Origin: Deltaproteobacteria bacterium
Lineage (GTDB): Bacteria; Desulfobacterota; Binatia; UBA9968
Assembly: GCA_016193465.1 (NCBI GenBank)
Contig: JACPSE010000058.1
Span: forward strand, 1-64,000
DNA length: 64,000 nucleotides
Direction: 5' to 3'
The notes under the pieces were generated by a model. The model did not search any database. It had not been told where the DNA came from and saw only the letters and a program-made list of their open reading frames with translations. Both the position numbers and the translations under genes were made by a program. Positions 30,422-35,236 of the stretch are shown here, piece after piece. Position 1 is the stretch's first letter. Each line of letters begins with the position of its first letter.

Positions 30422-30544
30422 CGAACATCTCCTTCGCTGATAGAATGATAGAATATCTTTTAAGGACCTGTTGTGTCAACCCAGGTTCCCGCTCTCAGCG
30501 ACCGTAGAGCCGCTTGATGAACCCCTGTGATCAATGGGGAAAAG

Positions 30545-30940
30545 TTACTGCGCGACTCGCCCGACCATCCATGGTTTTAGCGGAGCATAGTTGACCCGCT
30601 TGTTTTGAGTGTTTTGGTCGTGCGCCGCCACGCGGAGAATCTCTAACGGCTCATCGCTCGCGCTTTCGAACCAGTACTTGTAGCCGCGCGGGATCATGAT
30701 GCCCTGATTCTTCGTAAGCTCCGCAATAACCTTGTCGCCTTCACCGTAGAACCTCACTGCACCACCGATGACCCACCAAAGTGCATCATCGCCAGTGTGT
30801 GTGTGAAGATTATTCTCGCCACCTTTGTTGACAACCTGGATTCCTGCCTTCAAGATGTCGCTCTTGCAGACGAAGATTCCCTTCTTCTCGCCGTTGAACT
30901 CCGGCTTTTCATACTTGAAGATCTGTACTTCTTGATCCAC
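30545..30940 (-). CDS. Cupin-domain protein
   Basis: About 131 residues from GTG 30940 (VDQEVQIFKYEKPEF). The GTG is chosen because AAAGGAGGGA lies just before it; the longer frame to 30997 has that site inside. The cupin metal motif is GGENNLHTHTGDDALWWVIGG with GEGDKV, and the second motif is MIPRGYKYWFESASDEPLEILRVAA. It faces the dehalogenase-like gene across a divergent promoter region, so the two may be co-regulated. Its reaction is unknown. Confidence 0.78.
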   Translation of the reverse strand: MDQEVQIFKYEKPEFNGEKKGIFVCKSDILKAGIQVVNKGGENNLHTHTGDDALWWVIGGAVRFYGEGDKVIAELTKNQGIMIPRGYKYWFESASDEPLEILRVAAHDQNTQNKRVNYAPLKPWMVGRVAQ

Positions 30941-31013
30941 GTTCGATCCCTCCTTTGAAAATATTTTTACTGGCTTTAGCCCAACAACATGACCCACCGA
31001 CCCGAGACAGCCA

Positions 31014-31043
31014 GATTTACCGTATCAACGACCCTGCTGTCAA
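31014..31043 (-). promoter_or_regulatory. Promoter of the cupin gene (divergent)
   Basis: Minus strand TTGACA (31043-31038), 18-base spacer, TAAATC (31019-31014). It points away from the promoter at 31073-31102. Confidence 0.4.
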
Positions 31044-31072
31044 ATTCTCAACAGTCTCGGCTTTTCATTCCC

Positions 31073-31102
31073 TTGACCCCGCCTTCTGAAGTGACGTATA
31101 TT
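31073..31102 (+). promoter_or_regulatory. Promoter of the dehalogenase-like gene
   Basis: TTGACC (31073-31078), 18-base spacer, TATATT (31097-31102), about 50 bases before the ATG at 31159. Confidence 0.5.
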
Positions 31103-31158
31103 CCCGGCCAATCCCTGTATGTTGCTGCTTTAAGACCAGCGCAAAAGGAGGCTTCCTT

Positions 31159-32382
31159 ATGCTGACAGGCAAGACGCAGCGCAATCCGCGATCTTACCGT
31201 ATTGTAGGCCCTCAGCGACAGATCGACGAGCGTGAGACCCCTCACCCTCGTGTCGACCGTGGCGAATTAGGAGAGCGGATTCGTTCCTGGCGCAAGACCC
31301 GATTCGGCGAGGATCCTTTCAGGCGTATCTACGGTGGCGGTGGTGATAAGAGCTGGAACAGTTTGTACCACATTATGAAAGATGTGCCAGAAGGGGGAGT
31401 AAATCCTAATCGGATACCTGTCTCCGACCCCGCCAAGATGGCCTGCAACATCAAAGAGATCGCCCGCTTCCTCGGCGCCGATGTGGTGGGGATTACATAT
31501 CTCGATCAAGCTTATGTCTATTCCCACCGCGCCGAAGGCAATGCCGCTACGGGGAAAAAGCCCGGAGACCCCATTCACCTGCCCCATCGCTATGCCATCT
31601 GTCTGGGTTTCGCCAGTGATTACTACAAGTTTCTCAGCAATAACAGTCGGATTTCAGACGCTGAGTACGGGCTGGGCAATATTCACACGATCCCAACCAC
31701 TTTCATGCTGGCCAGCTACATCCGCGAGATGGGGTACCCTGCGCGTGCTCAGTATTACGGGACCTACGAGTTGAATCCCATACCTCTGGCGGTGAATGCC
31801 GGGCTAGGGGAGCTGGGGCGTCACGGGATGCTCATCCATGAGGAGTACGGCTCCCGGCTGCACCTGGCTGTAGTGACGACCGATCTCCCACTGGCGGTTG
31901 ACGAGCCTGTGGATATTGGAGTCGAGGAAGTCTGCAAGTATTGCATGAAGTGTGCCCGCACCTGTCCCTCGCACAGCATTCCTTTCGGAGGCAAGGAGGT
32001 CTACAACGGCGTCGAGAAGTACCTTGTCAACGTGGACACCTGCTACAAGTACCGGCTGGCATCGAGGGGTCAGTGGTCCAATTGTGTTATTTGTGTCTCC
32101 TCGTGCTGTTACAACAAGCCTAAGGCATGGTGGCACACACTGGCCTGTTGGGCGATCAAGTGGACGCCGATCCCATTACGCCCGCTCCTTATTGTCCCTT
32201 TGCTTTGGATTGACGATCTTTTTTGGGGGAAGCGGCCCTGGAAACATATGAAGTGGCTGGACTACGACAATGCCCCTATGCCCGTGACCTGTAACATACC
32301 CGGCTGCCAGGCGAAGCACGCCAACCTGCAGCATAAGCGGCTCCATGTTACCAAGCCGGCAGTTGGAGGGGCAGTAAGCTGA
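31159..32382 (+). CDS. Reductive-dehalogenase-like corrinoid/Fe-S protein without Tat signal
   Basis: A 407-residue protein. The middle part has dehalogenase/QueG-like corrinoid-domain features: LGADVVGITYLDQAYVYSHR, HRYAICLGFASDYYKF, YIREMGYPARAQYYGTYELN and GLGELGRHGMLIHEEYGSRLHLAVVTTDLPL. Two Fe-S clusters follow: C259-C262-C265-C269 with CP, and C295...C309-C312-C316. The N-terminus has no twin-arginine motif, unlike respiratory RdhA, so it should stay in the cytoplasm. The C-terminal part is unusual: a Trp-rich hydrophobic stretch about 325-355 (ACWAIKWTPIPLRPLLIVPLLW), perhaps membrane-associating, and a further CxxxxC (C378, C383). The ATG has a strong AAAGGAGG site. It may reduce a halogenated or other aromatic substrate; the true substrate is unknown. 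No RdhB anchor gene is present. Confidence 0.75.
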   Translation: MLTGKTQRNPRSYRIVGPQRQIDERETPHPRVDRGELGERIRSWRKTRFGEDPFRRIYGGGGDKSWNSLYHIMKDVPEGGVNPNRIPVSDPAKMACNIKEIARFLGADVVGITYLDQAYVYSHRAEGNAATGKKPGDPIHLPHRYAICLGFASDYYKFLSNNSRISDAEYGLGNIHTIPTTFMLASYIREMGYPARAQYYGTYELNPIPLAVNAGLGELGRHGMLIHEEYGSRLHLAVVTTDLPLAVDEPVDIGVEEVCKYCMKCARTCPSHSIPFGGKEVYNGVEKYLVNVDTCYKYRLASRGQWSNCVICVSSCCYNKPKAWWHTLACWAIKWTPIPLRPLLIVPLLWIDDLFWGKRPWKHMKWLDYDNAPMPVTCNIPGCQAKHANLQHKRLHVTKPAVGGAVS

Positions 32383-32407
32383 GGCTGTGCTATTTACGGA
32401 GATGATC

Positions 32408-33469
32408 ATGATAAAGCGTATTCTCATCACCCCCATAACTCTTTTCCTTTCCCTTTGTCTTGTACCGAGCGTATGGTTTGTCCCCAGCATTCAGGCGCAG
32501 ACCGAGCCTTTCTATAGGGGTAAGACTATCCGGATCATTGTTGGCACCACGTCTGGGGGTCAATACGATCGCTGGGCTCGGCTGTTGAGCCAGCAGATGC
32601 CCAAGTATATCCCTGGAAACCCGGATATGATTGTGCAGAACATGCCAGGCGCTGGTTCCTTAGTCGCCGCAAACTATGTTTACGGAGTGGCCAAACCCGA
32701 CGGATTGACCCTTGGCATGTTCACCTATTACATCTACATGGATCAGCTCTTGGGCCACAAAGAAGTCCGGTTTGATTTGCGCAGATTCAACTGGATCGGG
32801 TCGCAGGAGAAAAGCCAAATGATACTCTTGGTGCGAGCTGACTCCCCGTATAAGTCCATCGAAGATATCCTTAAGGCCAAGGAACCACCAAAGTGTGGTG
32901 CCACGGGTAGTAGCGACTCAAGCTATGTCTTGGCTAAACTCCTGGAGGAGAGTCTGGGGGCAAAGTTTCAAATGGTCACTGGCTATCAGGGGGGAAATGA
33001 GATGGACCTAGCTTTAGAAAGGGGAGAGGTTGTTTGCCGGGGAACGAGACCTAGCGTTTATTTTGGCCGAGAGCCTTTTACCACGTGGCACAAAAAGGGC
33101 TTTATCCGGCCGCTTGTTCAAACTGGGCGTAAACGAGATCCGCGACTGGTCGATGTTCCTACAATCTATGAGATCATGGACAAGTATAAGGCTTCCCAGG
33201 TGAGCCGCCGTGTGGTTGAGGTCATAATGGCAGGTGATGAGTATGGTCGCCCCATGGTGGCCCCGCCTGGAGTTCCCATGGAAAGGGTGAGGATGCTACG
33301 CGAGGCCTATGATAAGAGCTTGAAGGACCCTGGTCTGATAGCCCAGGTCCAAAAGTCGCAGATGCAGGTGGAACCATCTACAGGTGATGAGCTCCAGATC
33401 CTGACACAAAGAGCCCTCGATCAACCTGCAGAGGTCATTGAGCGGCTTAAAACGCTCTTCGGGCAATAA
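32408..33469 (+). CDS. TctC/Bug-type solute-binding protein
   Basis: About 353 residues from ATG 32408, chosen because GGAG lies 6-7 bases before it. The signal peptide is MIKRILITPITLFLSLCLVP with probable cleavage after IQA or IQAQ. The mature start FYRGKTIRIIVGTTSGGQYDRWARLL, then IVQNMPGAGSLVAANYVY, marks the tripartite-tricarboxylate receptor family. Members capture carboxylic or aromatic acids in the periplasm. No TctA/TctB membrane genes are nearby. It follows the dehalogenase-like gene by about 25 bases, so it probably serves the same substrate. Confidence 0.85.
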   Translation: MIKRILITPITLFLSLCLVPSVWFVPSIQAQTEPFYRGKTIRIIVGTTSGGQYDRWARLLSQQMPKYIPGNPDMIVQNMPGAGSLVAANYVYGVAKPDGLTLGMFTYYIYMDQLLGHKEVRFDLRRFNWIGSQEKSQMILLVRADSPYKSIEDILKAKEPPKCGATGSSDSSYVLAKLLEESLGAKFQMVTGYQGGNEMDLALERGEVVCRGTRPSVYFGREPFTTWHKKGFIRPLVQTGRKRDPRLVDVPTIYEIMDKYKASQVSRRVVEVIMAGDEYGRPMVAPPGVPMERVRMLREAYDKSLKDPGLIAQVQKSQMQVEPSTGDELQILTQRALDQPAEVIERLKTLFGQ

Positions 33470-33536
33470 AGCCTCTACCGATGGGTTTTGGCATGTTGGC
33501 AAATGTTGTTGGTTCTCTCGCTACGGAACGGAAATC

Positions 33537-33780
33537 CTAAGCGGCAAAGCCCGAGTCTTCATGGAGCTCCCAAGAAACATCGCCAGCCGGACTCAGCGTG
33601 AAGGGCAGAGACTTCTGCATCGTTGGGGCGTATTCCTGCCAGGTCCCTTCTAGTATCTCGGTCGTCGGTGATCTCGCCGTACTTCGCAAAAACGCGCTTG
33701 CTGCGTGTTTCATTCTGCATCCGCTCCACGGTTGGCGCCGCCAAAGAGGCCTTGCGCAAGCTCTCTGAAAGATGTAAGAA
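33537..33780 (-). pseudogene. Possible remnant of a binding-protein C-terminus, frameshifted
   Basis: Two overlapping minus-strand frames join into one plausible protein end: KRVFAKYGEITDDR in one frame, then EILEGTWQEYAPTMQKSLPF in the next, ending ELHEDSGFAA at 33537. It somewhat resembles the C-terminus of NitT/TauT-type binding proteins. No upstream part is present. I hold this only weakly; it could be chance. Confidence 0.25.
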
Positions 33781-33788
33781 TTGTCAAT

Positions 33789-34028
33789 ATGAAAACTATT
33801 GCGATTACTATTGAGAACGATACTCTGGAGTCTATTGACGAGTTTGCCAGGAAATCTCCGCGACGCGGTGGCAGTCGCTCCGGAATCATCCGGATGGCTA
33901 TCAGGGAGTTCCTGACAAAACAACGGCAGCGGGACCGGGAGGCCCAAGAGCGGGAGATCTTCAAGAGGCACCGCAAGCGGTTGGAACGACAGGCCCGTGC
34001 CCTTATCTCCGAGCAGGCTAAGCCATGA
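33789..34028 (+). CDS. MazE/RHH-type antitoxin
   Basis: A 79-residue protein. The N-terminus MKTIAITIENDTLESIDEFA and the following RSGIIRMAIREFLTKQ form a ribbon-helix-helix DNA-binding fold. The rest is a highly charged helix (QRQRDREAQEREIFKRHRKRLERQAR) that would bind the toxin. The start at 33789 gives this complete fold; the longer frame from 33705 adds unrelated residues. It overlaps the toxin gene by 4 bases (ATGA). Confidence 0.8.
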   Translation: MKTIAITIENDTLESIDEFARKSPRRGGSRSGIIRMAIREFLTKQRQRDREAQEREIFKRHRKRLERQARALISEQAKP

Positions 34029-34381
34029 CGCGGGGCGAGATCTATCGTACCAAGGAACGGATAGCGGAGCGTGGAGATAAACCCGGTTTCTATGTGGTGG
34101 TATCACGTTGCTTCATCGCTGCTAATGATGACGTTTCAACAGTTATTTGCGCCCCGGTCTACGGCGACGTTCTGGGTTTAAACAGTGAGGTGATTCTGGG
34201 GCTTGATGAAGGGCTGCCACGGACGTGTGCGATTCGGTGCGACTTCCTAATGCTTATGTTTAAACGGAAACTCACTCGCTTTGTCAGTACCCTTCCCCAA
34301 GCTAAAATTCTGGAGCTAAATCGCGCCCTCGCTTATGCCCTGGAGTTGGGTGAACTTACCACCAGAGGCTACGTCAGATAA
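34025..34381 (+). CDS. MazF/PemK-type endoribonuclease toxin
   Basis: A 118-residue toxin. Family features: MTRGEIYRTKERIAERGDKPGFYVVVSR at the N-terminus, VSTVICAPVYGDVLGLNSEVILG in the core, RTCAIRCDFLMLMFKRKL and an end RALAYALELGEL. MazF toxins cut mRNA or tRNA at short sites. It is coupled to the antitoxin gene. It lies at the end of the accessory insert between ilvN and ilvC. Confidence 0.85.
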   Translation: MTRGEIYRTKERIAERGDKPGFYVVVSRCFIAANDDVSTVICAPVYGDVLGLNSEVILGLDEGLPRTCAIRCDFLMLMFKRKLTRFVSTLPQAKILELNRALAYALELGELTTRGYVR

Positions 34382-34720
34382 AGTCGCCTTATCAGGGCAC
34401 TACTCTGACTGTATCTCTTCCCCTTATTGGCGTCCCGTCAGAGGTCTTTCCGTCCATTGCGTTGAAGAAGTCAGGGAAACACTCGCGGGAATGAGAAAAT
34501 GACTGGGACGGGAGTCGATCTTAAGATTCCGGGAGGGTGACGTTCAGCGTCTCAGCGTCGACTGTCCAAAATCCTTTCTCATCCTTATACTAGGGCGAAA
34601 AGCAGCCCTCTCAGAGGATTCATGCCTCTGGATGAGGCCCTTCTTCAGAAGCCCGTAGAAATCCATTCCAGATTCGTGGAGGACGTCTGCCTTGACATTC
34701 TTGGCTGGGAATTTACCGGC
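34382..34720. other. Intergenic stretch with no supported gene
   Basis: About 340 bases between mazF and the ilvN stop. Several short open frames exist on both strands but none has a recognisable protein or ribosome binding site. It probably marks the right edge of the accessory insert. Confidence 0.6.
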
Positions 34721-35236
34721 TCAGGCCTTGGCCGTTTGCTGCTCTCGCCGGGACGGGAGTTTGGCCTCGCGCGGAATAGCGATGCGCCCGGTGCGGATAA
34801 GTTCCTTGATCCCGAGCGGTTTCAGCATATTGATCAGAGCCTCAACCTTGTCCACATCACCCGTCACCTCTATCGTATAGGTGGCAGGGGAAGAATCAAC
34901 GATTTTGGCTCGGAAAATATCCGCGATCCGTATAGCCTCGTCCCGGTGGTCCGGTCTGGTGTGAACTTTGATCAAGGCGGTTTCCCGGTCCAGGTAACTC
35001 GTCTCCGTCATGTCTACAACCTTGAGCACCTCGACCACCTTGTTCAGTTGTTTCATGATCTGTTCAATGACCCGTTCATCGCCTCCCGTCACAATCGTGA
35101 TCATAGAGGTCGTCGGATCCAGGGTGGGAGCTACGGAGAGGCTTTCAATATTATAGCCCCGGGCGCTGAACAGGCCAGCGACCCTGGCCAGCACGCCAAA
35201 CTTATTTTCTACTAGGACCGATATGATTCGTTCCAT
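34721..35236 (-). CDS. ilvN: Acetolactate synthase small (regulatory) subunit
   Basis: A 171-residue regulatory subunit (ilvN/ilvH type). The N-terminal ACT domain reads ISVLVENKFGVLARVAGLFSARGYNIESLSV and TTSMITIVTGGDE; the C-terminal half has HTRPDHRDEAIRIADIFRAKIVD and TYTIEVTGDVDKVEALI. It binds the large subunit IlvB and gives valine feedback. It follows ilvB by about 100 bases of word repeat. Normally ilvC comes next; here 4.3 kb separate them. Confidence 0.95.
   Translation of the reverse strand: MERIISVLVENKFGVLARVAGLFSARGYNIESLSVAPTLDPTTSMITIVTGGDERVIEQIMKQLNKVVEVLKVVDMTETSYLDRETALIKVHTRPDHRDEAIRIADIFRAKIVDSSPATYTIEVTGDVDKVEALINMLKPLGIKELIRTGRIAIPREAKLPSRREQQTAKA

Follow-up and report, generated by a model that had tools for sequence, protein, structure and literature searches.

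The protein encoded at 31159-32382 (+) of the window, a stretch of 64,000 nucleotides from a Deltaproteobacteria bacterium of the Binatia (contig JACPSE010000058.1), is probably a cytosolic, ferredoxin-fed reductase that combines a cobamide with two [4Fe-4S] clusters, has a re-tooled active site and belongs to an unrecognised clade (A+B) of the reductive dehalogenase (RDase) superfamily. The bacterium is a soil and groundwater organism with six copies of this cytosolic RDase relative. The preliminary description of the locus was borne out in part: its three ORFs, the RDase core, both Fe-S motifs and a C-terminal CxxxxC motif are present, whereas the Trp-rich stretch that it singled out is not unusual and the set of neighbouring genes is not conserved. 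The RDase ORF (407 aa, clade A) is real and has an AGGAGG Shine-Dalgarno sequence just 5' of it. It is followed by an orphan TctC-type periplasmic binding protein gene (32387-33469, +; PF03401, E-value: 7e-22) and faces a small, divergent cupin gene (30545-30997, -; PF07883). A sigma-70-like promoter (TTGACC-18-TATATT, 31073-31102, +) is predicted by consensus match only. A TTGAC/TATATT-like stretch is also found upstream of several other clade A copies; because it occurs in some copies only, the idea of a promoter conserved 5' of all of them was rejected.

The window protein matches the reductive dehalogenase model TIGR02486 with an E-value of 9e-44 and 150.6 bits, which is below the curated cut-off of 160.35. 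The other tested members of clades A and B score 147-158 bits, all under this cut-off, while the homologues L068, L084 and L085 and Sulfurospirillum RdhA pass it. The best relatives in the PDB are NpRdhA (7e-44), then PceA (~1e-25) and then QueG (1e-7); the QueG model TIGR00276 gives an E-value of 5e-13 and 48.8 bits, against a cut-off of 200. The PF13486 profile found no match in the genome, a null result that is uninformative because the control genomes were likewise without a match. Following AlphaFold2 modelling from a 52-sequence alignment (mean pLDDT 86, pTM 0.87), a Foldseek search returned NpRdhA first (TM 0.73), PceA next (~0.55) and QueG third (~0.40). An earlier alignment of 17 sequences, 15 of them near-identical, had given a pLDDT of 54 and was discarded. 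By inspection, the protein has no Tat motif or N-terminal hydrophobic segment, and no RdhB-like ORF is found among the ORFs neighbouring the gene, so the Tat signal and adjacent RdhB that mark respiratory RdhA proteins are both missing. The features of catabolic RdhA proteins, a vestigial duplicate domain and grouping with NpRdhA/BhbA, are not seen either: the window protein has a single domain and falls in a separate clade. Together, the profile matches and the model indicate a cytosolic RDase-superfamily member with a corrinoid-reductase fold that is predicted to bind a cobamide. A role in anti-phage defence was rejected, as there was no PADLOC match.

In a maximum likelihood tree of 77 sequences, clades A and B form one group (100/99), set off from QueG by a 100/100 branch and distinct also from the PceA group and the NpRdhA/BhbA group, with the reservations that the bootstrap was not fully settled and that the dyad positions discussed below make up two of the 240 alignment columns. 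Firm grouping with QueG would have overturned the preliminary description, and on this point it survived. Clade A+B appears from these comparisons to be a previously unrecognised branch of the RDase superfamily that is restricted, in the genomes sampled, to a single family of uncultured bacteria; it is regarded as undescribed because the Fe-S and cofactor-binding core is kept and both catalytic residues are lost. No description of it was found in the open-access literature (subscription journals were outside the search), and we know of no biochemistry for any of its members. Among 25 genomes of the family, clade A is present in 8, clade B (~40% identical) in 11 and either of the two in 16. No member was identified outside the family among order- and class-level relatives and 395 genomes of the phylum, and the best outsider (from genome G214) retains the canonical residues.

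The loss of the catalytic dyad can be followed residue by residue. In NpRdhA, Y426 and K488 have been described as the proton-donating dyad and the K488Q variant is inactive (PMC7565698); in PceA, Tyr246 and Arg305 are essential by mutagenesis (PMC11921367; cf. PMC5500849). In the window protein, the codon aligned with NpRdhA Tyr426 and PceA Tyr246 (codon 174, 31678-31680, +) encodes Asn, and the codon aligned with NpRdhA Lys488 and PceA Arg305 (codon 235, 31861-31863, +) encodes His. Position 174 is Asn, Leu or Met in clade A (16/16) and Gln in clade B (9/9), and the catalytic Tyr is found in 0/25. Position 235 is His or Gln in clade A (16/16) and His in clade B (9/9), with Gln in two sequences and Lys or Arg in 0/25. 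Every other RDase homologue examined retains Tyr and Lys/Arg, except possibly a long-branch sequence designated clade C. This sequence (L024, 4136-5497) is a single RDase-like protein of uncertain placement, in which residue 235 is His and the alignment around 174 is ambiguous. Another group, clade D (L025, 9269-10174, and orthologues), consists of RDase-like proteins of ~300 aa that keep Tyr174 and Arg235; it occurs in many genomes of the family and of a second family of the same order, apparently once in each.

Loss of the Tyr alone is not decisive. The chloroform reductase CfrA is active with C260 at the Tyr246 position and Y256 at the Thr242 position, and residue 260 is variable within the CfrA group, yet CfrA keeps R319 (PMC11921367). 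In clades A and B, an invariant Tyr170 aligns with NpRdhA Ser422 and PceA Thr242, where CfrA has its Tyr. In the AlphaFold2 model, Tyr170 and residue 174 share a predicted helix (164-190), with Tyr170 a single turn ahead.

The Fe-S ligands, by comparison, are retained. The first [4Fe-4S] motif, C259-x2-C262-x2-C265-x3-C269-P (31933-31968, +), and the ligands of the second, C295, C309, C312 and C316 (32041-32109, +), are both present, and none of the eight Cys varies among 52 homologues. In clade A, C316 is followed by Cys317 where the alignment shows that RDases usually have Pro, and NpRdhA Arg552 is retained in clades A and B as Arg/Lys299. The Trp-rich hydrophobic stretch belongs to an ordinary RDase C-terminus, W-D-D-x-x-x-G...W, which is common to most RDase homologues and is modelled here as two confident helices. 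The CxxxxC motif (C378/C383) is more distinctive, being part of a tail, C378-x4-C383-x3-H387-x8-H396 (32290-32346, +), of which the C-x4-C-x3-H part occurs in 25/25 clade A and B sequences and in none of the other homologues.

A recurrent partner of the clade A genes was missed in the preliminary description because there is none beside the window copy. For 11 of the 16 clade A copies with downstream sequence, an 82-aa dicluster ferredoxin is encoded directly downstream, beginning 21-122 bp after the RDase stop codon in ten measured cases; the remaining one, in L005, follows an RDase copy with a frameshift. The other five comprise a copy on contig C97 followed by an 18-residue ferredoxin remnant and four with none, including the window copy, which has lost its ferredoxin gene and for which ferredoxin is presumably supplied in trans. 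The cobamide assembly gene CobS is present in the window genome. Clade B loci contain a separate truncated RDase of ~200 aa in which the corrinoid half is present and the Fe-S half is missing (11/11), a ferredoxin fused to an HbpS-like domain (9/11) and, in eight cases, a stand-alone HbpS-like gene. Across the clade B loci L057-L067, the HbpS-like gene, the full-length RDase-like gene, the truncated RDase-like gene and the ferredoxin-HbpS fusion form a conserved cluster. Both haem and aquo-cobalamin are ligands of HbpS (PMC4923194). In sequence the truncated subunit is similar to NpRdhA, and in extent it matches the vestigial domain that NpRdhA carries as a fusion (PMC10463259). On this resemblance, the clade B cluster is best described as a putative NpRdhA pseudo-dimer divided between two genes, its ferredoxin bearing an HbpS-like domain.

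The window genome contains six near-full clade A copies, two more distant homologues and two C-terminal fragments. The five other near-full copies are 76-90% identical to the window copy, and comparison of the window copy with nine others gives dN/dS values of 0.11-0.27. These values indicate purifying selection and, taken with the number of copies, that the gene is not a chance ORF. One fragment, on contig C34, is an internally deleted copy in which a 44-bp upstream stretch runs straight into the final 201 bp of the gene; each part is ~95% identical to the window. Remnants of further clade A genes at L022 (11605-11842) and L026 (3526-3586) are 95-97% identical to the window copy and show recent gain and loss of clade A genes.

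The window copy lies in an accessory segment between ilvC and ilvN (30527-34719) that contains the cupin, RDase and TctC genes and an RHH/PemK-like pair. The segment is delimited by comparison with three congeners, in which homology to the window stops at 30526 and resumes at 34710-34721; at the same spot these carry an NMT1-like binding protein gene and other ORFs, and no RDase. The ilvN-ilvC gap is a variable spot in which several relatives have an NMT1-like binding protein gene, one of them with an amidohydrolase-like ORF in addition. Also within the accessory segment, at 33705-34381, an RHH-type gene (just under the Pfam cut-off) overlaps a PemK/MazF-like gene, and the two look like a toxin-antitoxin pair.

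The partner genes are most simply explained by a cobamide reductase that receives its electrons from a ferredoxin. The small ferredoxin would pass electrons to the two Fe-S clusters, and these to a corrinoid in its base-off form, which the window protein is expected to hold; the resulting cob(I) species would then strip a small organic substrate of a leaving group. Since clades A and B have Asn/Leu/Met/Gln and His/Gln in place of the Tyr-Lys/Arg pair that protonates the product in known dehalogenases, protonation would fall to other groups (candidates are His235, Tyr170 and Asp167), or the reaction would be an elimination without need of a proton. We tentatively suggest that clades A and B represent a distinct enzyme class of the superfamily, without the canonical proton-donor pair, working either by reductive elimination or on a leaving group other than a halogen and served by a dedicated ferredoxin, with the addition in clade B of a separate pseudo-subunit and of a domain from the tetrapyrrole-binding HbpS-like family fused to the ferredoxin.

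The preliminary description was right to place the protein among cytosolic RDase-superfamily members and not with QueG, but its three-gene catabolic unit, in which the TctC protein would import a halogenated carboxylate, the RDase dehalogenate it and the cupin act downstream, is unlikely. The gene order in the window is suggestive, with the TctC ORF (at its first start codon) beginning 4 bp after the RDase stop codon, and the TctC gene that directly precedes bhbA in Comamonas 7D-2 offers, by analogy, a real precedent for pairing an RDase with TctC. The cupin, however, adjoins no other RDase copy examined, and among close relatives TctC adjoins only the C34 and L002 copies. Those two proteins are 54-57% identical to the window TctC, whose nearest relatives (60-61%, including one on contig C65 of the same genome at 61%) are by their coordinates away from every RDase locus found; an RDase-specific TctC subfamily was rejected on this basis. 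There is no TctA match on the window's contig, with 18 elsewhere in the genome, and the Tyr/Lys-Arg pair of characterised dehalogenases is absent. Some binding protein gene is the nearest non-ferredoxin neighbour of 5/6 copies in this genome, against a rough expectation of ~12% per copy, but this is suggestive only, given that binding-protein genes lie in clusters and that the copies share ancestry. Adjacency is also cheap in a genome with ~250 binding-protein matches: the 4.5-Mb window genome (G000) has 151 matches to PF13343, 82 to PF09084 and 22 to PF03401 (TctC). This set amounts to ~6% of an estimated 4,300 genes, an unusually large expansion; 25 genomes of this lineage contain 7-65 TctC matches each at E ≤ 1e-40. 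The window TctC gene is probably in the RDase operon but independently recruited.

Other explanations concern the chemistry of the protein itself. Dehalogenation is possible, and a specific form of the favoured explanation that deserves serious consideration, while falling short of probable, is that the protein is a genuine reductive dehalogenase acting on organohalides of natural or human origin, with His235 (together with Tyr170) standing in for the usual proton donors in a CfrA-like manner. The activity of CfrA despite its variable residue 260, the position of Tyr170 and the retention of Arg/Lys299 are in keeping with this; on the other hand, clades A and B have no counterpart of CfrA Arg319, the K488Q change inactivates NpRdhA, and the genes next to the window copy include none with a recognised link to halogens. 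A second specific form, which we hold to be somewhat doubtful, is a cobamide reductase whose substrate carries no halogen, or which performs a reductive beta-elimination that needs no proton donor. It would account for the loss of both dyad residues throughout clade A+B, and precedents exist in QueG, with its non-halogen chemistry within the superfamily, and in a related dehalogenase whose Y298F variant lost hydrogenolysis and gained in dihaloelimination, a reaction that changes at R357 likewise increased (PMC11921367); the binding-protein neighbours, however, differ from copy to copy. Loss of both catalytic residues in every member could also mean loss of reductive chemistry, leaving a non-catalytic corrinoid-fold protein like the vestigial N-terminal domain of NpRdhA. 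This is very unlikely given the eight retained Fe-S ligands, Arg/Lys299, the ferredoxin partner and the low dN/dS, and the lookalike of the vestigial domain is the truncated clade B subunit, not the window protein. Finally, epoxyqueuosine reductase (QueG) shares the superfamily and its model gives the weak match noted above, far under the cut-off, but this identity was rejected as extremely improbable: the window protein is on the opposite side of a 100/100 branch, resembles QueG less than NpRdhA in fold (TM 0.40 versus 0.73) and in scores, and is encoded in six copies per genome.

If annotated by similarity, clade A and B proteins would pass for reductive dehalogenases and their hosts for degraders of organohalides. 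A whole branch that has lost the residues of the known chemistry, kept the machinery and multiplied allows the chemistry of a cobamide/Fe-S reductase lacking the pair to be tested directly, and clade B, as the putative split-gene counterpart of the fused vestigial domain of NpRdhA, is useful for the history of catabolic dehalogenases.

Among known systems, the catabolic enzymes NpRdhA and BhbA are similar to the window protein in their corrinoid/[4Fe-4S] core, cytosolic location and lack of a Tat signal, and their surroundings also bear comparison: the NpRdhA cluster has ferredoxin genes (PMC10463259) and bhbA has a TctC gene before it. Unlike them, the window protein lacks the vestigial N-terminal duplicate domain, the fused reductase domain and the equivalents of Tyr426 and Lys488, has the extra CxxxxCxxxH tail and belongs to a separate clade. 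The respiratory enzymes PceA and CfrA have the same core and the C-terminal W-D-D-x-x-x-G...W region, and the Tyr at the PceA Thr242 position is shared with CfrA; the window protein differs from them in having no Tat signal or adjacent RdhB, in the change of Arg305 to His and in the replacement of Tyr246. QueG is likewise a cytosolic member of the corrinoid superfamily with two [4Fe-4S] clusters, but it is of a distant clade, and the window protein is multi-copy, has RDase-type N- and C-terminal parts and gives no sign of a tRNA role. The RDases with N-terminal transmembrane helices (PMC6797604) are, like the window protein, Tat-less and RdhB-less homologues from uncultured bacteria, from which it is distinguished in that no transmembrane helix is seen.
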